This document shows, in pieces, positions 10,630 to 24,977 of a stretch of DNA of 64,000 nucleotides. A model generated the notes under the pieces. That model did not search any database. It was not told the DNA's origin and saw only the letters and a program-made list of their open reading frames with translations. Positions within the stretch are counted from its first letter, which is position 1; the number at the start of each line of letters is the position of its first letter. The translations under genes and the position numbers were made by a program. Source of the DNA: Aureliella helgolandensis (GTDB taxonomy: Bacteria > Planctomycetota > Planctomycetia > Pirellulales > Pirellulaceae). The stretch lies in assembly GCF_007752135.1 (NCBI RefSeq), contig NZ_CP036298.1:4402001-4466000 (forward strand), in the 5' to 3' direction.

Positions 10630-11766
10630 TCAGGACTGCTCTCGCTCCAATTGACAAGCATTCTCTGGTTTCGTTGTAAGGGACAACGTTGAGGTGCTTG
10701 CTTCCTCAGCGACGGTGGTTGCCGCGACATGCAGACGCAGCGTCTCCATCTCCTCTTGCAGGTGTTGCAACTCCAGGGTCTTCTCGGCGTACAAGGCCTC
10801 TAACTTCCGCAAGCGAGTTTCGGGTTTGATGCGAAACACTCGATGAACGACTTCCAAAATCAACAGCGCTCGAACGGCTCGCATGGCAACGCCGCGCACT
10901 CGATAAACTCGCACCACGCGCGTTAGCTGCTGTAGCTTTCCAATTTTGGCTAACTTGGTTGCGCGCAAGATCCGCAGCGTCCGCAAAAACGAAATCAGTG
11001 GCAGCAAGATAATGAGTAGATCGAGCCAGTGCCGCTTGCAGTACTGAAACTTTTTGTTCGTTACAGATACCATCACGATGAACTCCGTAGCGAACGCAAA
11101 CCAAATCAATCCCGTTCCAATATGCAGCAGCGCACGGAGGTTAGGGTGCTCTACGATGTGATCCTTGTACAAGAACTGCACACCGAGGACCGGAAGAATC
11201 AGCAGTGCGATCCACACCATAGGAATACTAAACACCTTCTCCAGATGTCGTTGCAAACGCCAATCGACGACTTGCCAACCTAGACGTGGTAACCAAATTT
11301 TGTCGCGGGCATCACGGTGGCGAGCGCACATGCGAAGTGGCGGAACAAAACAACTCAACCACCAATTGGAGTGACGCTGGCTCATCGACTCTCCTGCGTC
11401 CAATTTCAGATAGTTCAGGCCTTGCTCCAGCAGGAAAATTGGCCAGAGTGCCAAGAGAACCAATCCGCAATAGCGTCCCCAATGATAGGCAGACGTGAGG
11501 TACGCAACCTCACGCTCGAAAACCTCCGTATCCAACAGTGGAGTGGCTTCAGTCGTTCCGAGCTCTGCCCCCACGACGTCAACACCGATTTCCGTTAGCT
11601 CGTGTTCCAAAACTCGGGGTACATCGATCCACAGAACCATGATGCACGCCACCAGCGCCAGGAATAGCACGGAGAGGTAGAACATAAAGGGATGCGACCA
11701 ATGGGCAATATCGGTAGCTTGTGGACTCGGAGCTTCCGTCGCTTGGATGTTCGTTGAATCTGACAA
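10630..11766 (-). CDS. Voltage-sensor-like membrane protein without pore, coiled-coil tail
   Basis: This 378-residue membrane protein has two N-terminal membrane helices (about 27-48 and 97-118), then a four-helix bundle resembling an ion-channel voltage-sensor domain: S1 (178-200), S2 (213-235, with E228), S3 (247-261, with D249) and an S4-like helix with a basic residue at every third position (R262, R265, R268, K271, K274, K277). More arginines follow up to 291. No S5, selectivity filter or S6 can be seen; the protein instead ends in a predicted coiled coil (about 315-350) and a polar tail. This plan recalls voltage-gated proton channels, though sequence identity to them is not claimed. 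The apparent start is TTG; M28 is an alternative but would remove part of the first helix region. Confidence 0.8.
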   Translation of the reverse strand: MSDSTNIQATEAPSPQATDIAHWSHPFMFYLSVLFLALVACIMVLWIDVPRVLEHELTEIGVDVVGAELGTTEATPLLDTEVFEREVAYLTSAYHWGRYCGLVLLALWPIFLLEQGLNYLKLDAGESMSQRHSNWWLSCFVPPLRMCARHRDARDKIWLPRLGWQVVDWRLQRHLEKVFSIPMVWIALLILPVLGVQFLYKDHIVEHPNLRALLHIGTGLIWFAFATEFIVMVSVTNKKFQYCKRHWLDLLIILLPLISFLRTLRILRATKLAKIGKLQQLTRVVRVYRVRGVAMRAVRALLILEVVHRVFRIKPETRLRKLEALYAEKTLELQHLQEEMETLRLHVAATTVAEEASTSTLSLTTKPENACQLEREQS

Positions 11767-12954
11767 TTGTCTGACTTGGATTGGTGGCTTGGATGGCTGT
11801 TGCTAAGTGCACTGCGTGGCACGAATGGGGCGGACAACGCGGGCCGCGCTGTCAGTCGGGCAAGGCGATGCACCTCGCCAGTTCTCATGGGAACAGTCGT
11901 CGAAGTACGCTCGACAGGTACAACTGATCAGGAACAGTATACCCGAGTTAGCAGGGGCAGCAGGCGAAGTGCCATGCCCTTCACTGCAACGCCAGCGAAC
12001 CAGATTCGAAATCTGCAACGCACTTTGCGGGCACTACCTTGGAGTGCCCATGTTGGAGCAACAATGACCGCTTAAGTCAAGCGTTCCTCACACAGCACTC
12101 CAACTCTGACATGCGTTAGACAGGCTCCCGCCTCAAGATTGCTGCAGGCAGCTCTCGACCCTACTCGCCCTGCCCAACAATCATCAATACCAATTTGGCT
12201 AGGGCCGTACCTGCATTTCAACTTCAGCATCGCGGGTCCGGCCCTTCCTTGCTGGCCCTTCCTCTCTGCGGCGCGGTCACTGCGACGCGGTCACTGCGAC
12301 GCGGTTATTTCGGAGTCGTTCCGCCAGGATCGTAGCAATGGCGAGCCGCGCCAAGCGGAGTGAGTTCACGCGAGGAGGACATGCTTCGCGTGTGTGATCT
12401 TTTGTTCAGCTTGGACAGCTCAGCGTGGATAGAGCCCGCCCGCACTCTCTCAATGTTGCAGAACCCGCTATCCCAGCAGCCCATGCATGGACTCGCCGGC
12501 CGTTTGACGCTACCTCCGCTCATTGCCATCGTCGCCCCACCGGCGCTTGCCACGGGCACCTCTCCCACCCGCTCAATTATCTGCGCAGGCGTGTACCGCA
12601 CCGGGCACTCGCCAATGCTTCGCGAACAGACCATTCAGAGTGCCCACCCCCCGAGGGACACCCATTGCTGCCTCGTGTAACGGTCAGGGGGTTCTAGCAG
12701 CTTAGCGACTATTTGACGAAAAATCGCGGGCTGGCCCAGGCTTCACCCTTAAGGGCGGTGTAGGTTTGGACGGTCGATTCTCCATCGGATGCTGCGCGGC
12801 GACCTAAGGGGAGGCTGACCTCAGGAGCGTACCATTCTGTAGTATTCGCTCGGAACAGTCCAAATTTTGCGCCTCAGAACGCCGTTTGATAGGCCATTCA
12901 ACCTATCAGCAGAAAAAGCCCACTGCCGCACTGATGCGTTTTTGGAGAAAGTGG
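11767..12954. other. 1.2 kb gene-free region
   Basis: No believable coding region is present; the open frames on both strands are short, overlapping and of odd composition. The stretch contains a 14-bp tandem repeat (12273-12306) and a 10-bp perfect palindrome CCCTTAAGGG near 12747. The promoter of the YqiJ-flotillin-AAA cluster should lie toward its right end. Confidence 0.45.
12273..12306. repeat. 14-bp tandem repeat, about 2.4 copies
   Basis: The unit GCGGTCACTGCGAC occurs at 12273-12286 and 12287-12300, followed by a partial third copy. It lies in non-coding sequence. Its size matches the unit length of the unrelated repeat at 43985. Confidence 0.8.
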
Positions 12955-13605
12955 ATGGAGTTATTTACCAATTTGATCGCGAGTCCTGTCCTACCTGCAA
13001 CGGTGTTACTGGGCCTCATGGTTGCCTGGAGTTTCATGGCAATGCTAGGCGCCGTTGATCTAGATGTCGGCGGTCCGGACGTCGATATCGGTCAAGATCT
13101 GGATCTCAGTGTCGGCAGCCATGCCACCGAGGGAATGGCTTTGTTGGCTCTGAAGTGGTTGAACATCAAAAATGTGCCACTCGTCGTCTGGCTTGGCGTC
13201 TTCTCCGTGATTTGGTGGTTTATCTCGATATCACTCTGGTCCGCGATCGATTCGCGGATTTTTACGGATCCCGGCTGGTTTTGGTCAACCTTACTTATCC
13301 TGAAGAACCTCGCTATCTCGCTGCCTCTCGCCAAATTGGCCACGACTCCCATGAAACCTTGGTTTGTTGTGGAGAAGATTGGTGCCACGCACCTCATCGG
13401 ACAAGAGTGCCAGATCAGTTCCCTGGAAGCTACGCCTGAATTCGGGCAAGTCCGCTTTCGCACCGAAGGCGCTCCGCTGTTGCTTAATGTTCGCACTGAT
13501 GGCCAGCACTTGGCCAAGGGAACGAAGGTGTGGATTACACACTACGATGCACAACACCGCGTGTACATCGTTTCGCCGACAACTACCGAATCGCTCCCTC
13601 CCTAG
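12955..13605 (+). CDS. YqiJ/NfeD-like membrane protein with OB-fold domain
   Basis: This 216-residue inner-membrane protein has a first membrane helix (about 10-33), an Asp-rich loop (about 34-52, with repeated D-x-D), two further helices (about 73-95 and 109-128) and a soluble C-terminal domain (about 140-208) resembling the OB-fold of the NfeD/YqiJ group. The ATG at 12955 is chosen because GGAG lies at 12944-12947, seven bases upstream; the frame stays open to 12886 and ATG 12934 is an alternative. The flotillin gene follows 125 bases later in the same direction. NfeD-type proteins are known partners of SPFH/flotillin proteins, so a role in anchoring or organising the flotillin assembly is likely. 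Confidence 0.85.
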   Translation: MELFTNLIASPVLPATVLLGLMVAWSFMAMLGAVDLDVGGPDVDIGQDLDLSVGSHATEGMALLALKWLNIKNVPLVVWLGVFSVIWWFISISLWSAIDSRIFTDPGWFWSTLLILKNLAISLPLAKLATTPMKPWFVVEKIGATHLIGQECQISSLEATPEFGQVRFRTEGAPLLLNVRTDGQHLAKGTKVWITHYDAQHRVYIVSPTTTESLPP

Positions 13606-13730
13606 CCTTTCAAGCGAAGCGATCTGCGGCAGCAACCCTGCATGCACCGTTTCGACAGTCGCATGACCATTGATTCTTCCCTCAAATTGCCAAACTAATC
13701 GATCACTCCCTTCACGGAACCAAACGTACC

Positions 13731-15782
13731 ATGAACCTTTCTTTACTACCGCCGTTGGCGCAATCTGAGACGATCGTTTACGCAGTCATTGCTCTGGTTG
13801 TCCTGCTAATCCTGGTCATTGGCATCCTTGCTTTGATCTCCCGCTTCTACAAAAAAGTGGGACCCGATGAAGCCATTGTCAGGACCGGCTGGGGCGGAAT
13901 GCAGGTCGTGACAGCCAACGGGATCTTTGTGATGCCCGTCGTGCATCACAGCGAAAAGATGGACCTCACCCTCAAGAGTTTCGAAATTGCTCGAGAGGGC
14001 GCCGAAGGACTCATTTGCAAAGACAACATCCGAGCTGACATTCGTGTTGCCTTCTTCATTCGTATCGACAAAACGCAAGAAGAGATGTGCGAAGTGGCAC
14101 AGTCCATCGGCTGCAAACGAGCTAGCCAACTGGAGACTCTGCGTGAACTGTTTGATTCCAAATTCTCGGAGGCTCTCAAAACGGTCGGCAAGCAATTTGA
14201 GTTTGTGGAGCTGTATGACAAGCGAGAACAGTTCAAGGGTGAAATCCTGAAGGTCATTGGAACGGATCTTAACGGCTATCGCCTGGATGATGCGGCCATC
14301 GACTACTTGGAACAGACGCGTCTCGAGTTGCTCAACCCGAACAACATTCTCGATGCGGAAGGCATCAAGAAAATCACGGAGTTGACCGCCACTGAGAAAG
14401 TGCAAGAGAACCACTTCACTCGCGAGCGGGAAAAGACACTGAAGAAGCAAGACGTCGAAGCCCAGGAAGCGATCCTAGAGCTTGAGCGCCAACGAGTTGA
14501 AGCGACTGAAAAGCAAAAGCGTGAGATTGCTGAAATCACCGCCAAGGAAGAGGCGTCCGCCAAAAAGGTTCAAGAAGAGAATCGCTTGCAATCGGAACGA
14601 GCACGTATTGCAACCGACGAAGAATTAGGAGTTGCCGAGGAGAATAAGTTGCGACAAATCTTGGTTGCGCAGCGCAATAAAGAGCGCACCGATGCGGTGG
14701 AGCTTGAACGCGTGAATCGCGATCGAGAACTCGAATCGACAGAGCGTCTACGCTTGGTAGGCGTGGCCGAAGTCGAAAAAGAGAAGGCCATCGAGACCGA
14801 ACGCCGCAACATCCAAGAAGTGATCCGCGAAAGAGTCGCAGTCGAGCGTGCCGTCGTGGAAGAGCAGGAGCGGATCAAGGATACGGAAGAGTTTGCCGCT
14901 GCAGATCGAAAGAAAAAGGTCGAGGTGACCGCTGCGGAAATGGCCGCGGAGCAAGCGATGGTCCGAGAGGTTAAGGCAGCAGAGTCGAAACGCAACTCCG
15001 CACAATTGCTGGCCGAGCAAGTCCGCATCGAAGCCGAAGCATCGCGTGATCAGGCGGAGAAGCGGAGTGCAGCTACCAAGATGCTGGCCGAAGCGGCTAC
15101 CGCAGACCATTCCTCCAAGGGCTTGGCCGACGCACTGGTCTTAGAAGCCAGCGCTGCAGCTACCGAAAAGCAAGGCATGGCAGAAGCCCGTGTAATGAAG
15201 GAAAAGTATACCAGTGAAGCTCAGGGAATCTCTGAGAAGGCCGCTGCGATGAAGGAACTCGACGGCGTCGGCAAGGAGCACGAAGAATTCAAACTACGCC
15301 TCGAAAAGGACAAGCAGATCGAGATCGCTGCAATCGATGCGCAAAAATCGATCGCTGGCGAACAAGCTCTGGTCCTGGGTGAAGCCCTCAAGTCGGCCAA
15401 GATCGATATCGTCGGTGGAGACGGCGAATTCTTCGACCAAATCTCCTCCGCGGTTAAAGGTGGTAAGTCCATCGACCGCTTCATCCTCAATTCCCAAGTT
15501 GCGACCGACATCAAGAATACGTTCTTCAAGGGGGATCCTGAGCATTTCAAACAGAACTTGGCTGGATTGGTCAGTCAATTCAATCTGAGCTCCGGAGAAA
15601 TTAAGGACCTGAGTGTCGCCGCCCTCGTGGCACAGCTTCTGTCCGCCGGTGCGAGCGACAGCATGCGATCCCAACTGGTAAACCTCCTGGGCATGGCTGG
15701 CAGCTTGAATCTGGCAGATAAAACTGTCGGCAGCCTAGTCGTCAGCGGCTCGGCCAAGTCCACCACCAAGACCAAGTCCTAG
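13731..15782 (+). CDS. Flotillin-family (YqiK-like) SPFH protein
   Basis: This 683-residue membrane protein has an N-terminal membrane helix (about 15-40), an SPFH/band-7 domain (about 45-235) and a very long charged coiled coil (about 235-530) rich in Glu, Ala, Arg and Lys with repeated E-A motifs. A helical C-terminal region containing many small and hydrophobic residues follows. This is the flotillin architecture, and the length is normal to slightly long. Flotillins oligomerise into large rings that mark ordered membrane domains. The gene lies between the YqiJ-like gene and the giant AAA ATPase, all on the plus strand, suggesting one complex. No clear Shine-Dalgarno site precedes the ATG. 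Confidence 0.93.
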   Translation: MNLSLLPPLAQSETIVYAVIALVVLLILVIGILALISRFYKKVGPDEAIVRTGWGGMQVVTANGIFVMPVVHHSEKMDLTLKSFEIAREGAEGLICKDNIRADIRVAFFIRIDKTQEEMCEVAQSIGCKRASQLETLRELFDSKFSEALKTVGKQFEFVELYDKREQFKGEILKVIGTDLNGYRLDDAAIDYLEQTRLELLNPNNILDAEGIKKITELTATEKVQENHFTREREKTLKKQDVEAQEAILELERQRVEATEKQKREIAEITAKEEASAKKVQEENRLQSERARIATDEELGVAEENKLRQILVAQRNKERTDAVELERVNRDRELESTERLRLVGVAEVEKEKAIETERRNIQEVIRERVAVERAVVEEQERIKDTEEFAAADRKKKVEVTAAEMAAEQAMVREVKAAESKRNSAQLLAEQVRIEAEASRDQAEKRSAATKMLAEAATADHSSKGLADALVLEASAAATEKQGMAEARVMKEKYTSEAQGISEKAAAMKELDGVGKEHEEFKLRLEKDKQIEIAAIDAQKSIAGEQALVLGEALKSAKIDIVGGDGEFFDQISSAVKGGKSIDRFILNSQVATDIKNTFFKGDPEHFKQNLAGLVSQFNLSSGEIKDLSVAALVAQLLSAGASDSMRSQLVNLLGMAGSLNLADKTVGSLVVSGSAKSTTKTKS

Positions 15783-16150
15783 GTCCGCAGATCGACCCCG
15801 GCGGGCGGCCGCATGTCGGCCGCGGCCGGTGCCTGCCCCAAGGGCGTGGGGTTGCCATTTTCCCGCCCAAGTGGAACAGTGACTAATCGACAAGCCGACC
15901 TGCGACTTGTCGGCATCCTAGCCGCCCGCTGTGCCAGATGATCGATAACGCGTTGGCTCGCCGGCTGGTTTGATTCATTGCATTTGTAACCCTAGCGAAG
16001 AAAACGCAATCCAACTCGTACTGCAGCAGCAAGCTCTCCCGCTTTGCTATCGCAGCGACGTACTGAGACAGCACCCGGTAACGCAGCGGGTGACGAGTTA
16101 CCTCGTCTCGCTCCCCCACTCCACCTTCGCCTTACGCACTTAAGCTTGCC
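15783..16150. other. Intergenic between flotillin and AAA genes
   Basis: No gene is visible in this 368-base gap. Just after the flotillin stop, GCGGCCG (15805-15811) and CGGCCGC (15817-15823) can form a very GC-rich 7-bp hairpin with a 5-base loop. No U-tract follows, so it may stabilise or partly terminate the transcript and lower expression of the downstream ATPase. Confidence 0.4.
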
Positions 16151-19100
16151 ATGACAGAATCGCTCGGAAGTGGAACCTACGACGTATTGCGAAATCGTCT
16201 TCGCGAGGCGGCCAACGAATTGCGTGAGCGTTTCGAACAGCTCAATGCAGCCCGTTCAGACGTCTTTGGAAACATCGAAACGAAGCTTTGTAGCACAGCG
16301 CATGTATCGACTGATCACAATTGCGTTCCCCGCGACTTGCTATCCATCGGTGATTGCTTGCTGCTGGCCTACAATGTGCAATTTGGCCTCAAGACCGAGA
16401 TTGACTGCACGGATGTGTTCAGCTTCTATCGATTTGACGGCGAGATCGCCCATTCGCTACCTCTATCCAACCTGTTCGACGAACGCTTCCAACGCGATTT
16501 CAAAGAGCTCTATCGCTACTACAAGAACACCACCTTTGCGCGATTCTTCACTGCCGGGCCCTTCGTTTACTTCGTATTCCAGGTTGGTAAGTCGGTCAGC
16601 GACGTCAAGGCCTTTAAATGGGCCGTCGAGGGAGACGAGCTACGGTATGTCGATAATCGCGGTGACCAAGATGTCCGCCTCCCCGAACAACACGGTTTCC
16701 GATGGTTGCGGGCGACGCGCGATCAACACCGCAGCGGAGTGCATCCCCACGTTTCGATCGAAGACTTAGTCTTTGTCGAGTGTGTAGGCGGTGACCTAAC
16801 GATCAAAGTGGAAGACAATACGGAAGACGGCAGTGGCATCTATGCCGAGCCAGTCGACAATCCCGACCAAACGCTCGACGACGCGGAAGTCTACTACTCT
16901 ATCCTAGGCAACCTAGTGTTGCTCAAGATGCGTCCGTACCAGGAAAAAGATTTTCGCTACTTTGTATTCAGCGTCAAACGGCAAGCCGTACAGCGCCTGG
17001 ATGCGATCGCTCAAGCCTGTGTACTGTTGCCCGACGATCATGGGATCATCTTCCCAGGTGGCGTATTCCTGCAAACCGGTTCCTGCAAGTTATTCGATCA
17101 TGGCCTCGACGGCCTTGCCTACGAGCGGACCATCGCTGCACAAAACGGCGAGGATTATCTCTATCTGTTCACCGATCTAAAAACGGGAACCTATTTACAC
17201 TTACGATACAACCTCATTCGCCAAGAAGTCGACACTCCGCTGGTCTGTCACGGGCAAACCCTGTTTGACGACGGCCGCATGGTAACCTTTCGTGGTGACG
17301 AGAACCCACAAAAGCACCACGCCCTGCAACTATGGCAAACCCCCTACGTCGGCGCCAATTTTAAAGCGGAAATGGCGACCGATTCAATGCTCTACAAAAT
17401 CGGCAATCGCGAGTTGGTGCGGGGGATGGCGGAATGCCAAGAACTGCTGCAGTTGATCGATAAAGACGATTCGTACGCGGAATTGTATTCCGACCTCACC
17501 AAGCGCTCTACCGACGTCATCGACAGCTACTTTTGGTTGGATCGAGAAGAAACGTTCCGGTTCGCCGAACCGATCGCCAAGATCCGAGATGCAGCCTCGG
17601 CTGCGGTCGAGGAATTTGATAAGGTCGTACGCGTCCGTCGCGAAACGGAACAACAACTCCGAGATTCTGCACAAGCCACCCAGCAGCTGTTAGCGGCCAT
17701 CCAACGTTCTTCCTTTGATTCCGTCACAGCGTTCGTCGAGAAATTGGCTGCCATCCGGACACAACGGGGCCATGCAATCGGCTTGCGAGAATTGCGGTTT
17801 ATCGACCTTCCAGCGGTCGAGGAGCTCGAGACTCAGCTTAGCGAGGCAGCCACACGCCTGGGACTGCGTTGCGTTCAGTTCCTGTTGACCCCGTCAGCAC
17901 TCGATCCCTATCGCAAGCGCATCGTCCAGTGTGAAGGAGAAATCCCCGAGGTCCATTCCGCCAGCGAAGGGCGTCAACTGCAAGAACAACTCCTGCAGAT
18001 TAGTAGCGATCTCGAGCTGCTGATTGAGACCGTATCCCAGCTGAAAATTGAAGATCTGACGCAACGCACCGCCATCACCGATGAGACGGGAAATCTGCTT
18101 GCAGATCTCAACCGCATACGCTCCGCCCTAAAATCACGAGTTCGCGAGCTGCTGTCGGGCGAGATGGAGGCAGATTTCGCATCCCAGACCAAGCTGCTTG
18201 ACCAAGCGGCCGCAGGGGCACTGGAAAACGCCGACACGCCAGATAAAGTCGATGAGTCGTTAACCCGCACCATGCTCCAGCTCGAGGAATTGGAAGGTCG
18301 TTTTGCGGAGTTTGATGAGCTGCTCATGAGATTGACCGAAAAACGTCAATCGCTCTACGAGGCGTTCGAAGCGCGCCGTCAACAATTGGTCGAAGCTCGT
18401 TCAAGACGCGCCGAGGGAATTGTCTCGGCCGCAAATCGCATCCTTCAAGGTATTTCGTCGCGCGCTCAGCGAATGAAAGATGCCGATGCGCTTCGCTCCT
18501 ATTTCGCTTCGGATCCCATGGTCGATAAAGTTCGACAACTTGCCAATCAGCTCCAAGAATTGGGCGATTCGGTGCGCATGGAGGACGTTCTTACTCGGTT
18601 GAAGACGGTATCGGACGATGCGCTACGGCAACTGCGAGATCGCCAAGATCTGTTTACCGGCGATGACGGGCAGATCAAGCTGGGCAGGCACTTCTTCAGT
18701 ATCAACAGTCAAGCAACTGAGCTGACAACCGTAGTGCGTGATGGTTTGCTTCAGCTACACCTGACCGGGACACAATTTTATCAACCGTTGCGGGACGAAG
18801 TTCTCAATAGCTCTCGAGATCTATGGCAACAACTGTTGCCCAGCGAAAACGATGCAGTCTATCGCGGAGAATTCCTAGCCGCCAGTCTATTCGATTCTGC
18901 GCAAAGTGATCAGTACGCCTATTTGCAGTTGAAAGAAAAGGAGCAGATCGATTGGGTTCGGAGCCAGATGCAATCCCGACATGCCGAGGGGTATTCTCGC
19001 GGCGTCCACGATCAAGATGCGACGAAGATTCTCACGGCCTTACTCAATCTGGACCGACAATTGGGGCTGCTGCGAACCGCCCCAGCGATCCGAGCGACCG

Positions 19101-21469
19101 CTTGGTATGTCTGGCAATACCTCGTTCCGAACGAGGAACGCGAACAGGTCCAACAATGGATCAGCGGTTTCGACACTATCTCAACGATTCTTCCAGAGGC
19201 TCAGGCTAGCGGCAACTATGTTGCGCGACTATCCTTCCTGCTGGAGGCACACGGTGCAGGAATCCTGTTCGACGCAGCGGCAGACGACACAGCGGGTCCT
19301 TCCCTGAAAACTTCCACAATCCCGTCCAGCGTCCAGTCCAACGCGGTGGCGATACGCAGTCGCGTGTGTACTGCCGCACATTTTTTGATGGCACAATTGC
19401 GAGAGCAGGAAAGCGGGTTTGTCGCTTCGCCCCGTAGCCTCCAGGCCTTCACCCATCTCAAAGAGCATCTACCTTCTCGCGAAAGACAACGACTAAACGA
19501 GGCGTTGTCTCACAATCGGAACTATCCTAGCGCAGCCTGGACCTTGGCCATGGACGCGGTATCTGGATTCCTCCGCAGGAATGCACAGAACTCCTCCCTG
19601 GAGCTCGATCCCCTGGAAAACTACCAGCACGAGATCGCTCTTCTGTTGTTGATCGATGATAAGCAGGTTGCGGCGGGCCCCAAGGTGGAAATCGCGACGC
19701 GCGTGGGTTCGCTCGTAGGCGACCACCCACGGCTGAAACAGGGAGAACTGGGCCTACACTACCACGAATTCCGCACCAGGCTGGAGGCCTATCGCTCCGG
19801 CGTGCTTCCGCGTTTCTACGCACTTCGCGATACGAAACATCAGCTGTTGGTGGACGCTGAAAGAAGGTTGCGCACCTCTGAATTCAAACCAAGAGTGCTC
19901 ACCAGTTTCGTGCGGAACAAGTTGATCGATGATGTCTATTTGCCGCTTATCGGCGACAACCTTGCAAAGCAAATGGGGGCCTCTGGCGAAGCCAAACGAA
20001 CCGACCGAATGGGACTCTTGCTGCTAATCAGTCCACCGGGCTACGGCAAGACGACCCTTATGGAATACGTCGCCAACCGCTTGGGTTTAGTATTTGTGAA
20101 GGTCAATGGTCCCGCGTTGGGGCACAACGTAACTTCGCTAGATCCGGCAGAAGCTCCCAATGTGTCTGCCCGAGAGGAAGTGGAACGCATCAATCTGGCC
20201 CTTGAGATGGGCGACAATGTCATGCTGTATCTGGATGACATCCAGCACTGCAATCCCGAATTGCTGCAGAAATTCATTCCATTGTGCGACGCGACTCGCC
20301 GCATCGAGGGCGTCTGGCAGGGTGAAGCCAAAACGTATGACTTGCGTGGCCGAAAAGTGGTCGTTGTCATGGCAGGAAATCCCTATACCGAAAGCGGCGA
20401 TCGCTTTCAGATTCCAGACATGCTCTCCAATCGCGCCGACGTCTACAACCTTGGTGAAATCATTGGCGATTCCCGCGAAGCCTTTGAATTGAGCTACATC
20501 GAAAACTGCTTGACGAGCAACACCGTGCTTCAGTCACTTGCCAAGGCGAGCAGTCGAGATCAAAGAGCAGTGATTCAAGCAGCGAGCCGTGGTACGAGTG
20601 AAGGTTTGGAATTGGAATCCAATATGCCTCCCGATCAGTTGTCCGATGCCATCTCGGTGATTGCCAAGCTTCTGCGTGTGCGCGATGTAATTCTACGCGT
20701 CAACCGCGCGTACATTCGCAGCGCTGGCCAAGTCGACGCCTATCGCACCGAGCCCTCTTTCAAGCTGCAGGGCAGCTACCGAAATATGAATCGGATTGCA
20801 GAGCGGGTGGTCTCAGTCATGAATGAGTCCGAGCTCGAAACCCTGATCATGGCGAACTATGAGCAAGACGCGCAGACGCTGACGCGAGATGGTGAATCCA
20901 ATCTGCTCAAGTTCAAGGAGTTGCTGGGGAGCATGACGCCTGCGGAGGCCGATCGCTGGGAGCAAATTAAGTACGCCTTCGTCGAGAGTGTGCGAATGCA
21001 AGGGATCGAAGGCGAGGACAGCACGGCACAGGTCCTGCGTTCCCTGGTAGGTCTCAAAGATGGACTGGAGTCCATTCGACGCACGCTCGCCCAAGCCCTT
21101 GCTAGCAGCCACGACGACCAACATCGCACCGCGATGCAAGAGGGTATCGCGCATCTTTCCGCCAGCCTGACCAGCATCGGGGGGCAGCTCAGCGACTCGA
21201 TTTCCGCCAGCACAACGCGTCTGGAAAAATCCGGCAGCCAACTGCCGGACCAGAAAGTCTTGGTTCAACATTCGGTTCCACGCGTGATGACCGATCTGGT
21301 CCGTAGTCAATTTCAGCTTCTCTACGATGGACTGCGGCCGGTCCTAGAGTCCTCAGCGATGAGCGGAAAACAGCTTGAGGCCCTGCGAACCTCCATCGAC
21401 AACTGCCTGCAACAATACCGCGATCTCCAGCGTGAAATAGAATCCTCACACGACAAAGACTCGGAGTAA
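16151..21469 (+). CDS. Giant DUF3686-type AAA ATPase
   Basis: This 1772-residue protein has an N-terminal beta-rich region (about 1-450) typical of the DUF3686 ATPases that are often labelled DNA repair ATPase, then long coiled-coil segments (about 490-890) and a helical middle. A C-terminal AAA domain has Walker A S-P-P-G-Y-G-K-T-T at 1294-1302 (K1300), Walker B M-L-Y-L-D-D at 1358-1363 and a sensor-like V-M-A-G-N-P-Y near 1413. The second acidic Walker B residue is Asp instead of the usual Glu. The final 200 residues are again helical. No membrane helix or nuclease motif is seen. Its position after YqiJ and flotillin genes is a recurrent association, so remodelling of a membrane assembly fits better than DNA repair. 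That role is inference. Confidence 0.87.
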   Translation: MTESLGSGTYDVLRNRLREAANELRERFEQLNAARSDVFGNIETKLCSTAHVSTDHNCVPRDLLSIGDCLLLAYNVQFGLKTEIDCTDVFSFYRFDGEIAHSLPLSNLFDERFQRDFKELYRYYKNTTFARFFTAGPFVYFVFQVGKSVSDVKAFKWAVEGDELRYVDNRGDQDVRLPEQHGFRWLRATRDQHRSGVHPHVSIEDLVFVECVGGDLTIKVEDNTEDGSGIYAEPVDNPDQTLDDAEVYYSILGNLVLLKMRPYQEKDFRYFVFSVKRQAVQRLDAIAQACVLLPDDHGIIFPGGVFLQTGSCKLFDHGLDGLAYERTIAAQNGEDYLYLFTDLKTGTYLHLRYNLIRQEVDTPLVCHGQTLFDDGRMVTFRGDENPQKHHALQLWQTPYVGANFKAEMATDSMLYKIGNRELVRGMAECQELLQLIDKDDSYAELYSDLTKRSTDVIDSYFWLDREETFRFAEPIAKIRDAASAAVEEFDKVVRVRRETEQQLRDSAQATQQLLAAIQRSSFDSVTAFVEKLAAIRTQRGHAIGLRELRFIDLPAVEELETQLSEAATRLGLRCVQFLLTPSALDPYRKRIVQCEGEIPEVHSASEGRQLQEQLLQISSDLELLIETVSQLKIEDLTQRTAITDETGNLLADLNRIRSALKSRVRELLSGEMEADFASQTKLLDQAAAGALENADTPDKVDESLTRTMLQLEELEGRFAEFDELLMRLTEKRQSLYEAFEARRQQLVEARSRRAEGIVSAANRILQGISSRAQRMKDADALRSYFASDPMVDKVRQLANQLQELGDSVRMEDVLTRLKTVSDDALRQLRDRQDLFTGDDGQIKLGRHFFSINSQATELTTVVRDGLLQLHLTGTQFYQPLRDEVLNSSRDLWQQLLPSENDAVYRGEFLAASLFDSAQSDQYAYLQLKEKEQIDWVRSQMQSRHAEGYSRGVHDQDATKILTALLNLDRQLGLLRTAPAIRATAWYVWQYLVPNEEREQVQQWISGFDTISTILPEAQASGNYVARLSFLLEAHGAGILFDAAADDTAGPSLKTSTIPSSVQSNAVAIRSRVCTAAHFLMAQLREQESGFVASPRSLQAFTHLKEHLPSRERQRLNEALSHNRNYPSAAWTLAMDAVSGFLRRNAQNSSLELDPLENYQHEIALLLLIDDKQVAAGPKVEIATRVGSLVGDHPRLKQGELGLHYHEFRTRLEAYRSGVLPRFYALRDTKHQLLVDAERRLRTSEFKPRVLTSFVRNKLIDDVYLPLIGDNLAKQMGASGEAKRTDRMGLLLLISPPGYGKTTLMEYVANRLGLVFVKVNGPALGHNVTSLDPAEAPNVSAREEVERINLALEMGDNVMLYLDDIQHCNPELLQKFIPLCDATRRIEGVWQGEAKTYDLRGRKVVVVMAGNPYTESGDRFQIPDMLSNRADVYNLGEIIGDSREAFELSYIENCLTSNTVLQSLAKASSRDQRAVIQAASRGTSEGLELESNMPPDQLSDAISVIAKLLRVRDVILRVNRAYIRSAGQVDAYRTEPSFKLQGSYRNMNRIAERVVSVMNESELETLIMANYEQDAQTLTRDGESNLLKFKELLGSMTPAEADRWEQIKYAFVESVRMQGIEGEDSTAQVLRSLVGLKDGLESIRRTLAQALASSHDDQHRTAMQEGIAHLSASLTSIGGQLSDSISASTTRLEKSGSQLPDQKVLVQHSVPRVMTDLVRSQFQLLYDGLRPVLESSAMSGKQLEALRTSIDNCLQQYRDLQREIESSHDKDSE

Positions 21470-21798
21470 CGCCAACCATCCGGTGTCTGCTCAACTCCGG
21501 TAGATGCAAACGACCACCGTTTTCCATTCGCACTGGCCCCTTGCAGGGCGCTGGCGGCGCTGCACCGGTGGAACTCACAGCGCAAGTGGCTAGTCAATCC
21601 ACCTGCATTTTCGGTTCGAATGCATCCAATGCATTCTGAATTCAAGCAGCAGATTTCCCAGCCGTACTCTGGTAAGTGCTTATCCTATCACCAAGCCACA
21701 GAGCGGAACTGAGCAACCGGAACTTCCTGATGCATTGTCGCGGAAGCATCTTCTCAGGAGCGCTGGAATGGTGACCAATTAGTTCAAACGCTCTCTGT
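21470..21798. other. Intergenic between convergent genes
   Basis: The 329-base gap lies between the 3' ends of the AAA ATPase and malic enzyme genes. I see no gene, and no hairpin strong enough to name as a terminator. Confidence 0.4.
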
Positions 21799-23232
21799 CT
21801 AGCTTCCCGTGTTGGGGACGCCTGGCATCTGGGTCTTGCGCGCCGAGCCCGTTTCGATAGCGGTTCGGGAAACTGCTTCGGCCACGGCCAGCGCCACGCG
21901 TCGATCAAACACACTTGGAATGATGTAGTCTGGCAAGAGGTCGTTTTCAGGGATTGTCTCTGCGATCGCCCTGGCTGCCGCTAGCTTCATCTCTAGATTT
22001 ACCTCGCGCGCTCGGACATCGAGTAGTCCGCGAAACAATCCGGGAAAGCACAAGACATTATTGATCTGATTGGGGAAGTCAGAACGCCCAGTCGCCATGA
22101 TTTTCACGTGAGGTGCCGCTAATTCGGGACGTATCTCGGGGTCGGGATTCGCTAATGCAAACACGATTGCATCCCGTGCCATCAGCTGCACGTCTTCCAC
22201 CGTCAGTACGTTTTTGGCAGAGACGCCCACAAACACATCAGCGTCCTGCATGACGTCGGCGAGCTTTCCGCTCTCTTGGGACGGGTTGGTATTCTCCGCT
22301 AACCAGACCTTCAATGGATTGAGCTCGGCTCGTTTTTGATTGATTGCGCCGGTGCTATCGCAAACGACTAGGTTGGTCGCTCCGACCGCGTGCATCAATT
22401 TGGCAATGGCCACGCCCGCTGCGCCAGCCCCGTTGATCACAACTTTGAGCTCCTCCATCTTTTTTTGGACGATCTTCAACGCGTTGGTCAAAGCAGCAAG
22501 CACCACGATGGCCGTACCATGTTGGTCATCATGAAATACCGGTATCTCCAACTCCGCTTCCAAACGTTCCTCGATTTCCACACAGCGCGGTGCCGAAATA
22601 TCCTCGAGGTTGATTCCACCAAAAGTCGGTGCTAGATAGCGGCAAGTAGCAATGATGGCTTCGGTGTCCTGAGTGTCCAAACAGATCGGAAACGCATCAA
22701 CCCCGGCAAACTCTTTGAACAACACCGCTTTGCCCTCCATGACTGGCATTGCCGCTTTGGGGCCCAAATTCCCCAATCCGAGGATAGCCGATCCGTCGCT
22801 AATGACCGCGACCATGTTGCGTTTGATGGTGAGCGTGAAAGCAGATTCCGGGTCTTGGTGAATCGCTTCACAAACGCGAGCGACTCCCGGCGTGTAAGCC
22901 ATGGAGAGGTCATCCCGCGTCTTGATCGGAAACCGCGGCGCAATCTCCAATTTGCCACCTAAGTGCATCAGGAAGACGCGATCCGACACATGGACGACTT
23001 CCAAGTCCGGCATTTGACGCAGCGATTCGGCAATCTGTTGCCCATGCTCTACCGTGCTCGCGCTAACGGTGATGTCGCGCGTGATCTTTCCATCGCGTGA
23101 ATCCACCACATCAATGGCACCGATCAAACCATCCGCCTCTCCAATTCGAGAGGTCAGCTTTCCCAGGAAGCCTGGTGCATCTGGGTAACGCAAACGGATG
23201 GACAGACTGTATCCGGGACTGTGGTGACTCAT
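21799..23232 (-). CDS. NAD(P)-dependent malic enzyme with ACT domain
   Basis: This 477-residue cytosolic enzyme oxidatively decarboxylates malate to pyruvate. An ACT regulatory domain occupies about residues 7-85. The malic domain follows with Y113 in M-A-Y-T-P-G-V, K168 in M-E-G-K-A, the metal ligands E210-D211 in N-L-E-D-I-S-A-P and D235 in H-D-D-Q-H-G-T-A. The nucleotide-binding fold has G-A-G-A-A-G at 268-273. The ACT domain suggests allosteric control by a small metabolite. AGGA seven bases before the ATG supports the start. It stands alone between unrelated genes. Cofactor preference (NAD or NADP) cannot be settled from the sequence alone. Confidence 0.93.
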   Translation of the reverse strand: MSHHSPGYSLSIRLRYPDAPGFLGKLTSRIGEADGLIGAIDVVDSRDGKITRDITVSASTVEHGQQIAESLRQMPDLEVVHVSDRVFLMHLGGKLEIAPRFPIKTRDDLSMAYTPGVARVCEAIHQDPESAFTLTIKRNMVAVISDGSAILGLGNLGPKAAMPVMEGKAVLFKEFAGVDAFPICLDTQDTEAIIATCRYLAPTFGGINLEDISAPRCVEIEERLEAELEIPVFHDDQHGTAIVVLAALTNALKIVQKKMEELKVVINGAGAAGVAIAKLMHAVGATNLVVCDSTGAINQKRAELNPLKVWLAENTNPSQESGKLADVMQDADVFVGVSAKNVLTVEDVQLMARDAIVFALANPDPEIRPELAAPHVKIMATGRSDFPNQINNVLCFPGLFRGLLDVRAREVNLEMKLAAARAIAETIPENDLLPDYIIPSVFDRRVALAVAEAVSRTAIETGSARKTQMPGVPNTGS

Positions 23233-23768
23233 GAATTATCCTAAGAGATTGAATTGATTGATGGGCCCATCGAATGCTTCCATAGCCTGCCGGTAGTTTT
23301 TCGACGACTCTCACGGGGGGCATTCTATGCCCACGTATTAGTTCGCCAGCGTCTGCCTGTCGGATAGGGTGGATTCAACATGCATCGAAGATGCACATGA
23401 GCCCAATCGCGTTAGTCCCAAATATAGCGAACTCCGTAATAAATTTTAGCCCTCTACTGCGTTCGGTTGGCCGGCCTGGAGTTGCAGGCGTCACGCCATC
23501 GCGGTTTCCCCACAGAGCGTCTGCCCCGAAATATCGAACCTTCCGACAAATAGCAACGAAAATTTTGGGCCCATTGGTTGGCTCAGTTGCCAAGTGTCGC
23601 AATCCGCACAGTCGTTACCCCTGATGCATTAGCCGAGAGACTGAAAGGAATTCAAAACATTGCAGGCAAGCTCGTTTTCCTACAAGAACGGCTGTGACCT
23701 AAGTTTCGTGCGTTACCTGTGTCCTAGCCAGCAACTAGCTTCTCCATTCAACATTGCACCGCTATTTC
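23233..23768. other. Divergent intergenic region
   Basis: This 536-base gap separates the divergent malic enzyme and glycosyltransferase genes and should hold both promoters. The short open frames in it (for example 23391-23624) have no ribosome site or recognisable product. I could not identify promoter boxes with confidence. Confidence 0.4.
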
Positions 23769-24977
23769 ATGTCCATTTCCCAAACCTCAAGCAGCAGTTT
23801 TGCCACGCCTGCTCTTGCGCTGCCCCAGGTAGCCCCCCAGCAAAATCCCGCCGAACGAGTCTGCCGCGTACTGCATATCATCAACGGCGAGCACTTCTCT
23901 GGCGCAGAGCGGGTTCAACAACTGTTAGGAAAACGCCTGGGACAATTTGGCGTAGAATCTCATTTTGCTTGCATTAAGCCGGGCAAATTCAGCGAGCACT
24001 GCCAACTAAGAAGAAACCAAGTTAGCGATTTCCCCATGCGCGGCCGTTGGGATATGCAAGTGGTGAAAGATCTATCTGCCAAAGTGGAACAGGAACAGTT
24101 CGATCTTCTGCACGCGCACACACCTCGCTCCGCGATGATTGCCGCACTCGTCGCCCGCCAGACCCAGCTGCCCTGGATCTACCACGTGCATAGTCCAACC
24201 TCCCGCGACAGCCTGAGAGGGATTATCAACCGAGTCAACTACTGGCTGGAACGATATGCCATTCGATCGTGCTCACAACTCATTACCGTTAGCAAGAGTC
24301 TACGACGCGAGATGCTCAAGTGTGGTGTGCCGCGGCAACGCTTGACGGTTGTGCCCAATGGCGTACCGGCCATCGAGCCCATCGTGCCATCTCAGCGATT
24401 GCAGTCGAAGAGTTGGAAAATTGGCCTGATTGCACTCATGAGACCGCGTAAAGGAATTGAGGTCGCGTTGGATGCCATCCACCGCCTTAAGGCTAAACGA
24501 CTTCCCATTCAGCTCGAATTGATCGGCGGCTTTGAAACCTCTGCCTATGAATCCGAAATCCTCAACAAGATCGAAGCGTTGGAGCTCTCTGAGCACGTTC
24601 GCTGGACCGGTTTCACCAATGACATCCCCACAGCGATTCGTGGCCTAGACGCGCTGCTGCTGCCCAGCCTGTTTGGCGAAGGGATGCCAATGGTCGTGCT
24701 GGAAGCTTTAGCTGCCGGCGTTCCGGTTGTGGCCACGCGTGTCGAGGGAACGCCCGAGGTCATTCGCGATGGCGTGGAGGGATTTCTCGGCGAGCCTCGC
24801 GATGCCGTCAGTATCGGCAATAAGCTTGAGCAACTAGTTAGTGATCGCAATCGCTGGGCAACCATGAGTCAGCAGGCTTTGGCACGCCATCGCCAATGCT
24901 TTAGCGATGAGAACATGGCGCGCCGAGTAGCGCGGGTGTATCGCAAGGTGCTGGCTCAATCCAAACCACCAAGCTAA
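23769..24977 (+). CDS. Family 4 glycosyltransferase (GT-B fold)
   Basis: This roughly 402-residue enzyme transfers sugar from an activated nucleotide donor. The N-terminal half has the acceptor-side pattern VLHIINGEHFSGAERVQQL and H-A-H-T-P-R. The C-terminal half has V-V-P-N-G-V, the L-M-R-P-R-K-G-I segment, and the E-x7-E region (G-E-G-M-P-M-V-V-L-E-A) followed by G-V-P-V-V-A-T, the standard retaining GT4 signature. The ATG at 23769 is preferred over an in-frame TTG at 23754; no clear Shine-Dalgarno site precedes either. It is not in a polysaccharide cluster, so its product (lipopolysaccharide, exopolysaccharide or a glycolipid) is unknown. Confidence 0.9.
   Translation: MSISQTSSSSFATPALALPQVAPQQNPAERVCRVLHIINGEHFSGAERVQQLLGKRLGQFGVESHFACIKPGKFSEHCQLRRNQVSDFPMRGRWDMQVVKDLSAKVEQEQFDLLHAHTPRSAMIAALVARQTQLPWIYHVHSPTSRDSLRGIINRVNYWLERYAIRSCSQLITVSKSLRREMLKCGVPRQRLTVVPNGVPAIEPIVPSQRLQSKSWKIGLIALMRPRKGIEVALDAIHRLKAKRLPIQLELIGGFETSAYESEILNKIEALELSEHVRWTGFTNDIPTAIRGLDALLLPSLFGEGMPMVVLEALAAGVPVVATRVEGTPEVIRDGVEGFLGEPRDAVSIGNKLEQLVSDRNRWATMSQQALARHRQCFSDENMARRVARVYRKVLAQSKPPS

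Follow-up and report, generated by a model that had tools for sequence, protein, structure and literature searches.

The three-gene locus

Three consecutive open reading frames on the plus strand of the Aureliella helgolandensis genome encode a YqiJ-like membrane protein, an SPFH/flotillin-like protein and a giant DUF3686/AAA+ ATPase, and direct inspection of the sequence agrees with the original prediction on their positions. Coordinates refer to the window, the whole stretch of 64,000 nucleotides that was analysed. The YqiJ-like gene (12955..13605, 216 aa) starts with an ATG at 12955 that is preceded by GGAG, and its stop codon ends at 13605. After a gap of 125 bp (13606..13730; family median 14 bp, n=81) follows the flotillin-like gene (13731..15782, 683 aa), and after a further 368 bp (15783..16150; family median 123 bp, n=93) the ATPase gene (16151..21469, 1772 aa). 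The trio is in line, and with gaps of this size its packing is not tight. Across the family, the flotillin-ATPase gap exceeds 300 bp in 16 of 93 loci; among 67 named loci it is above 500 bp in 13, with the flotillin gene up to 1779 bp away from the ATPase gene. Since the gap is long in many genomes, the ATPase may have a promoter of its own. Counts of promoter-like and terminator-like signals between 12600 and 21900 are at the level of shuffled sequence and uninformative on transcript units, and an Rfam search of 11500-22500 gave no match.

The YqiJ-like protein matches Pfam YqiJ_N just above the cut-off (E 5e-5, 23.8 bits, cut-off 23) and has no Pfam match to YqiJ_OB. By hydropathy it has two hydrophobic stretches, at about 3-36 and 73-98. 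When the family profile is compared with E. coli YqiJ using hhalign, the probability is 93% (E 2.6e-7), and the C-terminal parts of the two align by profile only. A YqiJ/YuaF-type membrane protein adjoining an SPFH protein, as in the trio described by Ravi et al., is present here.

The flotillin-like protein has, with boundaries drawn by eye from the alignment, a membrane segment at residues 8-44 (its single hydrophobic segment by hydropathy), an SPFH domain at ~40-220, a charged, coiled-coil-like stretch at ~220-545 and a C-terminal part at ~545-683. The combination of transmembrane segment, band-7/SPFH domain and coiled coil that Ravi et al. give for their trio is found in it. None of the Pfam families matches the 683-aa protein at E 0.01; Band_7 reaches this threshold in just 13 of 61 ATPase-linked flotillins, and the A. 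helgolandensis protein is not among them. The original prediction called it a YqiK-like flotillin, and this holds for the SPFH part, as hhalign matches 413 columns of the family profile (residues ~20-480) to E. coli YqiK with a probability of 99.9%. It does not hold for the C-terminal Flot domain of E. coli YqiK: PF15975 is found at E 0.01 in 0 of 61 ATPase-linked flotillins (and 0 of 14 in another set), and is present in E. coli YqiK (6e-41) and in the Shinella (1e-26) and Agrobacterium (8e-26) proteins. A flotillin from outside the ATPase-linked group, in genome G029, also lacks PF15975. A tree of SPFH sequences, which includes four outsiders only and ignores 1,697 X letters, separates 88 ATPase-linked sequences from these outsiders and leaves E. 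coli YqiK outside the linked group; under midpoint rooting, the two nodes at this point have supports of 1.0 and 0.55. The tail that follows a GG motif varies between 22 and 129 residues (n=88), so that no single docking tail stands out. Searching solved structures by sequence finds QmcA, over profile residues 358-474 only.

The third protein was predicted to be a 1772-residue DUF3686-type ATPase, which Pfam bears out (DUF3686 E 2e-184, DUF7902 E 1e-21, AAA_5 E 8e-8, AAA E 2e-7). From Pfam and AlphaFold2, its N-terminal half comprises DUF3686 (23-461) with a beta-propeller-like region within it (~45-400), a helical part with DUF7902 (583-666) and a small beta region (~841-880); another helical part, the AAA+ domain (~1250-1610) and C-terminal helices make up the other half. 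The models have a mean pLDDT of 88.2 (1-880) and 85.6 (840-1772), and a membrane segment is absent. A beta-propeller in front of the AAA+ domain is predicted by AlphaFold2 and Foldseek, and on this predicted structure the protein corresponds to the AAA+ component of Ravi et al., which combines a coiled coil and a beta-propeller. The catalytic residues G1297, G1299, K1300, T1301, D1362, D1363, N1410 and R1428 are kept in 71 of 71 aligned ATPases.

The AAA+ domain resembles MoxR-type, RuvB and MCM ATPases in Foldseek. The target-normalised TM-score is highest for the MoxR-type proteins NorQ and CbbQ (up to 0.57), and the order by E-value is MCM7 (1.0e-4), RuvB (1.1e-4), CbbQ (2.4e-4) and NorQ (3.0e-4), all of them modest. 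A p97- or Vps4-type chain is absent from the best 50 Foldseek rows for this half. By sequence, among the matches listed, the AAA+ half matches solved structures around the P-loop, a stretch for which p97 is nearest; the DUF3686 half has two matches, both to short human chains and along a helical region. The AAA+ core fold and catalytic residues expected of MoxR proteins are present, but they are common to other AAA+ families. By sequence family, Pfam gives AAA_5 and AAA, as above; in NCBIfam a MoxR match at E 0.01 is absent, and the RuvB and CDC48 models score far under their cut-offs. Pfam and NCBIfam show no protease domain in the three proteins, and judged by sequence the trio is probably not a protease.

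Conservation of the gene set

The trio is a conserved unit, found in many distant bacteria. Of 70 informative named loci, 67 have a flotillin gene upstream of the ATPase gene, as do 11/11 loci of the plasmid collection and 15/15 loci of relatives, which makes the flotillin the most constant partner; for YqiJ the numbers are 56 of 62, 10/11 and 15/15. In the three named loci without an upstream flotillin, the genome encodes one elsewhere. A gene counted as a partner if it had the orientation of the ATPase gene and was no more than 9 kb upstream of it, and a locus was taken as informative if the gene was found or if at least 2500 (flotillin), 3500 (YqiJ) or 5500 (PspA) upstream bases were available. 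The 80 named loci were taken from the top of a set of at least 591 confirmed matches, which biases them towards relatives of the A. helgolandensis copy; they share one locus with the set of relatives (L054 = L020), which ends at an uninformative contig edge in both.

Among 40 relatives, the long flotillin is present in 17 of 18 genomes with the ATPase and in 1 of 22 without it, where presence means at least 600 bits (G014, at a contig edge in a 73% complete assembly, counts as present and G029, with 214 bits, as absent). Tabulated by hand in this way, co-occurrence is far above chance expectation, so that the outcome named as refuting the original prediction, co-occurrence at chance level, did not arise; gene order and joint presence together support the view that the genes form one module. 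The flotillin and ATPase trees also agree (r 0.82, n=87; permuted maximum 0.23), but shared ancestry suffices to explain this, and it was not taken as a sign that the two proteins touch.

A proposed function

The best explanation, to which we give somewhat less than an even chance, is that the trio is a membrane-anchored unit which uses ATP to remodel proteins that a flotillin assembly holds. The flotillin-like protein and its NfeD-like partner YqiJ would form an oligomer on the membrane, which would gather and hold client proteins or organise a membrane patch. The giant soluble ATPase would then dock there, with its beta-propeller or coiled coils as possible contacts, assemble into an AAA+ ring, and draw on ATP to pull at or reshape the clients or the flotillin assembly itself. 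For the oligomer and its holding function we infer from analogy with SPFH proteins, FloA-NfeD included; docking, ring formation, substrate and direction of remodelling are likewise put forward as what the ATPase may do. In Staphylococcus aureus, FloA-NfeD is described as holding unfolded proteins independently of ATP (PMC11222466), which would leave an obvious opening for a partner that hydrolyses ATP. ATP-driven remodelling by the AAA+ domain is plausible given its invariant catalytic residues and a predicted fold like that of remodelling ATPases, and also of DNA motors; client remodelling as such is independent of the likeness to MoxR proteins.

Four observations count against client remodelling. 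The gap in front of the ATPase gene is long in many genomes, so that the ATPase may be transcribed separately; the flotillin tail varies and offers no standout docking tail; MCM7 and RuvB rank above CbbQ and NorQ by Foldseek E-value, with p97 nearest by sequence; and the phylum-wide excess of PspA in genomes with the ATPase, described below, fits PspA as the usual substrate.

Alternative explanations

In the first alternative, in line with Ravi et al. (PMC11237479), the ATPase works like Vps4 on ESCRT-III: it would take PspA (ESCRT-III-like) polymers apart on a membrane platform of flotillin and YqiJ, and copies without PspA would use another coiled-coil protein. We regard this as rather unlikely for the trio. 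Of 25 informative Bacteroidota loci (assigned to this group by hand from the titles of the sequence records), 19 have a PspA gene upstream in the same orientation, as do 19/59 of all named loci and 2/11 of the plasmid collection. In the planctomycetotal genome G181, two PspA genes adjoin YqiJ, and in G066 the upstream distance to a PspA-family gene is ~7 kb. Across 246 genomes of the phylum, PspA is associated with the ATPase (25/33 genomes with it, 44/213 without), also when family f18 is left out (17/25 vs 40/209), which is the sole way in which descent was handled. Furthermore, an SPFH protein of Bacillus subtilis is reported to tie PspA to the membrane (PMC8581546).

Against this, the complete A. 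helgolandensis genome has no PF04012 match, and a profile of 13 PspA sequences finds in it no detectable PspA (best E 0.08 over 43 residues). Ravi et al. (PMC11237479) propose that copies without PspA use one encoded elsewhere; in this genome none was detected with these two profiles, in the operon or elsewhere. A trio operon without PspA is allowed by their description, so its absence does not bar membership. Among the 40 near relatives there is no association (PspA in 4/18 genomes with the ATPase, 8/22 without, p 0.49), and 14 of the 18, A. helgolandensis included, lack PspA. PspA was also sought in 31 module genomes outside Bacteroidota (part of 48 such named loci, and often incompletely assembled): 11 gave no match, Rhodopirellula baltica BR-MGV among them, and three more gave matches below the cut-off only. 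The lack of a p97- or Vps4-type chain in the best Foldseek rows also speaks against Vps4-like action, though p97 leads by sequence.

A bolder reading is a flotillin machine that is powered by ATP and independent of PspA, in which a distinct flotillin subfamily without the Flot domain would be paired with a giant beta-propeller AAA+ protein, and the latter would add ATP-driven release or refolding to a flotillin holdase in many phyla. This is possible, with the balance tilted against it. In hosts that lack PspA, the partnership of flotillin and ATPase stands apart from the published PspA/ESCRT idea, and a flotillin that almost always comes with its own giant AAA+ protein is a directly testable handle on flotillin function in bacteria.

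Alternatively, the ATPase may disassemble or re-form the flotillin assembly itself, so that the number and size of microdomains would be controlled by ATP and clients are secondary. The constancy of flotillin as a partner and its joint presence with the ATPase would fit, but the same evidence is compatible with client remodelling, and we consider control of the assembly unlikely.

It is very improbable that the protein is a DNA-repair ATPase merely neighbouring membrane genes, as the database names would have it ('ATPase involved in DNA repair' for DUF3686 in Pfam, 'DNA repair ATPase' for the gene in sequence records). In its favour, the top two Foldseek rows are MCM and RuvB, and a family of HTH-S24 (LexA/CI-like) regulators, identified by Pfam on two members of which the second is below the S24 cut-off, recurs in 20 loci. 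However, the constant neighbours are flotillin and YqiJ, a Rad50/SbcC-type match is absent in Pfam, and none of the 20 listed neighbour clusters resembled DNA-repair genes by eye, most of these being without a search-based identity. The near-constant partnership with a flotillin suggests that the name is misleading for the DUF3686 family. An anti-phage or other conflict system would suit the patchy distribution of the ATPase (9/15 genomes of the host's genus, 18/40 relatives, some copies plasmid-borne), but 0 of 3 trio proteins match a PADLOC model at E 0.01, a comparison with 50,697 phage records without a match to the ATPase is neutral on defence, and such a role is highly unlikely.

Comparison with known systems

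The gene set is in print already: the trio, often joined to PspA, is described by Ravi et al. 2024 (PMC11237479), who propose ATP-dependent membrane remodelling for PspA-AAA+ pairs. Their CesT/Tir-PspA-flotillin-YqiJ-AAA+ operons and 'abbreviated' forms contain the same three families as here, namely a YqiJ/YuaF-type protein, a protein with transmembrane segment, band-7 domain and coiled coil, and an AAA+ protein with coiled coil and beta-propeller. Two differences from their account are the A. helgolandensis genome, where no PspA was detected, and the C-terminal part of the SPFH protein, which they call 'flotillin' and in which there is no Pfam Flot domain here.

E. coli yqiJ-yqiK has the same gene order, with 36% identity over 189 residues in the SPFH protein, but no ATPase gene follows it, and YqiK has PF15975 and lies outside the ATPase-linked group. 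YqiJ is regarded as a minimal relative of NfeD (PMC2636767), and the S. aureus FloA-NfeD system likewise pairs a flotillin with an NfeD-type partner; unlike what is proposed for the trio, its holding is independent of ATP, and the abstract describing it names no ATPase partner (PMC11222466). For the AAA+ domain, target-normalised TM-scores are highest with MoxR-type AAA+ systems, a group that includes NorQ/NorD, and NorQ is described as remodelling a partner protein (PMC13036017); the MoxR-type chains among the Foldseek rows listed have ~235-270 residues, compared with 1772 here. Finally, the SPFH protein of the trio has a flotillin-family likeness to SO1377 of Shewanella, a COG2268 gene for which a knockout phenotype involving iron, peroxide and mutation rate is reported (PMC1468410).

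Module and genomic context

The three open reading frames (ORFs) all lie on the plus strand at the positions first assigned to them, and the sequence bears out the coordinates: the YqiJ-like ORF spans 12955-13605, the flotillin-like ORF 13731-15782 and the ATPase ORF 16151-21469, with gaps of 125 bp and 368 bp between successive genes. The flanking genes look unrelated to the module. These include a malic enzyme (21799-23232, minus strand) and a glycosyltransferase (23754-24977, plus strand), both recognised by Pfam. Upstream and in the opposite direction is a membrane-protein-like ORF (10630-11766, minus strand; 378 amino acids as listed from TTG) without a significant Pfam match, Ion_trans appearing at E 0.39 only. 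Judged by eye, an arginine-spaced segment in this ORF resembles a voltage-sensor helix. The host genome, a single contig of 8.44 Mb and 99.8% complete, carries just one gene for DUF3686.

Conservation of the three genes

DUF3686 was found in 18 of 40 near relatives, and in 9 of the 15 genomes of the window's own genus. The order YqiJ-flotillin-ATPase is kept in all 15 relative loci with enough upstream sequence (17 were fetched besides the window; the remaining two are contig edges). The co-occurrence check proposed with the original prediction found a long flotillin in 17/18 ATPase genomes vs 1/22 ATPase-free genomes of the 40 relatives (Fisher p 3.5e-9, a value that ignores shared descent). 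The sole ATPase genome without a long flotillin (G023) has its ATPase at a contig start, and the sole flotillin genome without ATPase (G014) shows a contig edge and is 73% complete.

Among the named loci, which are the best 80 of at least 591 ATPase matches, the flotillin lies upstream of the ATPase in 67 of 70 informative loci and YqiJ in 56 of 62, and in 54 of those 67 loci no more than 500 bp separate the end of the flotillin from the ATPase. In the three exceptions a long flotillin is elsewhere in the genome, one of these being at a contig start. By author-assigned labels, these loci span planctomycetes, Bacteroidota, Verrucomicrobia, one Kiritimatiellota, and clostridia-like and deltaproteobacterial lineages; the closest matches to the window ATPase in this set are from Rhodopirellula and other planctomycetes. 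ATPase matches also occur in 12 plasmid-collection records, some of which, judged by length, are probably chromosomes. The 11 loci fetched from these (Bacteroidota, Actinomycetota, Deinococcota, Pseudomonadota) have the flotillin in every case and YqiJ in ten. DUF3686 is absent from all 14 control genomes, and there is no ATPase behind yqiJ-yqiK in E. coli K-12. The prediction that the three genes form one module is thus upheld, and over evolution the flotillin and the ATPase have almost always stayed together.

The flotillin and the ATPase

The description of the flotillin as YqiK-like holds for only part of the protein. The family matches E. coli YqiK by hhalign at 99.9%, reaching residue 480 only; the SPFH domain (36% identity) and part of the coiled coil are common to both, but the Pfam Flot domain (PF15975) of YqiK is found in none of 61 ATPase-linked flotillins. 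Two alphaproteobacterial flotillins also have this domain. In the alphaproteobacterial loci L145 (2151-5632) and L146 (2151-5605), the run is PspA/IM30, YqiJ-like protein and a Flot-containing flotillin, with no ATPase nearby. Loss of Flot is not unique to the module, because a planctomycete flotillin with no ATPase partner (genome G029) lacks it too. It is the only SPFH protein of that genome, a diverged one (L147, 5753-7696, minus strand); G029 has no ATPase and two PspA matches. In an SPFH tree, 88 ATPase-linked sequences separate from the others examined, a split to be taken as indicative since these outsiders number four.

For the ATPase, the predicted models have a mean pLDDT of 88.2 (residues 1-880) and 85.6 (residues 840-1772). 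Residues 45-400 are modelled mostly as strands, and among the Foldseek rows for residues 1-880 are many proteins that we take to be beta-propeller folds (KLHDC3, CyRPA, the clathrin terminal domain and others; E 1e-5 to 1e-3), the top three rows being long axonemal and IFT chains. The other half is predicted to hold a full AAA+ domain, for which a MoxR-type likeness is one lead among subfamilies. By E-value the top Foldseek rows for this half are MCM7 (1.0e-4), RuvB (1.1e-4), Skd3 (1.6e-4), CbbQ (2.4e-4), another RuvB chain and NorQ (3.0e-4). NorQ and CbbQ come first on target-normalised TM-score (0.39-0.57, vs 0.33-0.43 for RuvB), a lead partly due to their small size, and by sequence the P-loop stretch is closest to p97. 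The positions assigned by motif as Walker A, Walker B, sensor 1 and the Arg finger are invariant in 71/71 aligned sequences. No membrane segment was found in the ATPase, and no protease domain is among the Pfam and NCBIfam matches.

Recurrent neighbours

After the trio itself, clustering of neighbouring ORFs gave PspA (21 loci), an HTH-S24 (LexA/CI-like) regulator (20) and CesT/Tir (16), mainly a Bacteroidota pattern: of the informative named loci, 19 of 25 from Bacteroidota have PspA upstream, against 0 of 34 from other groups. The remaining clusters (at most 11 loci each) look like widespread families and were taken for background, and the 17 relative loci have no constant family beyond the trio in this clustering. 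HTH-Peptidase S24 regulators were seen near CesT/Tir-PspA-trio runs in L036, L062, L075-L080, L085-L088, L100, L108 and other loci; the regulator is on the opposite strand in the loci inspected (Pfam run on two members), and its presence suggests induction by a stress signal. Ravi et al. (PMC11237479, as retrieved) use neither LexA nor S24 as a term in their main text. A PLD-like (PLDc_2) hydrolase recurs near the module in 8 loci, including L124 (4224-4919; Pfam run on one member).

Some loci depart from the Bacteroidota pattern. In the planctomycete genome G181 PspA genes adjoin YqiJ, and in G066 a PspA-family gene lies ~7 kb upstream. The G181 locus (L127, 3097-15840) reads: a gene which by eye we take to be FtsH-like, two PspA, YqiJ, flotillin, ATPase and a third PspA-family gene. 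On the Pseudomonas plasmid pQBR103 the trio follows a YjfI-PspA run. Here (L037, 980-14184) the order is YjfI, PspA, rhomboid, DUF2491, DUF350, DUF1190 and glutathionylspermidine synthase, then directly the trio, which appears to merge both operon kinds of Ravi et al. (PMC11237479, as retrieved).

Does the trio depend on PspA?

Ravi et al. 2024 (PMC11237479, as retrieved) report CesT/Tir-PspA linked to the trio along with abbreviated PspA-free forms, so the gene set itself is already in print; the latter forms, they propose, work with PspA encoded elsewhere in the genome. Across the phylum (246 genomes) ATPase and PspA are clearly associated, PspA being present in 25/33 ATPase genomes vs 44/213 others (p 9e-10), and this counts against PspA-free working of the trio. 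Descent inflates the association, because in one planctomycete family (f18) PspA is matched in each of the 12 genomes, whether or not the ATPase is there; without this family the counts are 17/25 vs 40/209. A PF04012 search of the window genome found nothing at E 0.001, and a 13-member PspA profile likewise found no match there, the best being E 0.08 across 43 residues in a frame of 937. Among the 40 relatives, 4/18 ATPase genomes have PspA vs 8/22 others (p 0.49). Outside Bacteroidota, 31 module genomes were checked out of 48 such named loci; 11 have no PspA match and 3 more have sub-cut-off matches only. The trio exists without PspA in the window's lineage, and PspA is therefore a frequent companion, not a requirement.

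Comparison with known systems

No publication naming DUF3686 was found in the literature searched; DUF7902 is not named among the literature matches listed, none of which is evidently about the ATPase protein. Likewise, this literature, which lay mostly outside subscription papers and preprints, yielded no experimental work on the three genes as a module. A P. aeruginosa SPFH survey (PMC13086221) has no word starting "ATPase" or "PspA" in its retrieved text. Single-gene work is reported on a related flotillin, the Shewanella COG2268 family knockout (PMC1468410), and for E. coli YqiK unpublished data quoted in PMC2636767 indicate no growth defect on deletion. To this the present analysis adds a test of the PspA proposal, a flotillin subfamily lacking Flot, a co-occurrence close to one-to-one, and models of the domains.

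The best-supported account is a putative ATP-driven remodeller: the ATPase would use ATP to remodel a client held by the flotillin, or the flotillin assembly itself. This account draws on genetics and domain logic, namely the near-inseparability of flotillin and ATPase in evolution, the remodelling of a partner protein reported for a MoxR-type ATPase (PMC13036017), and the ATP-free holding of unfolded proteins reported for FloA-NfeD (PMC11222466).
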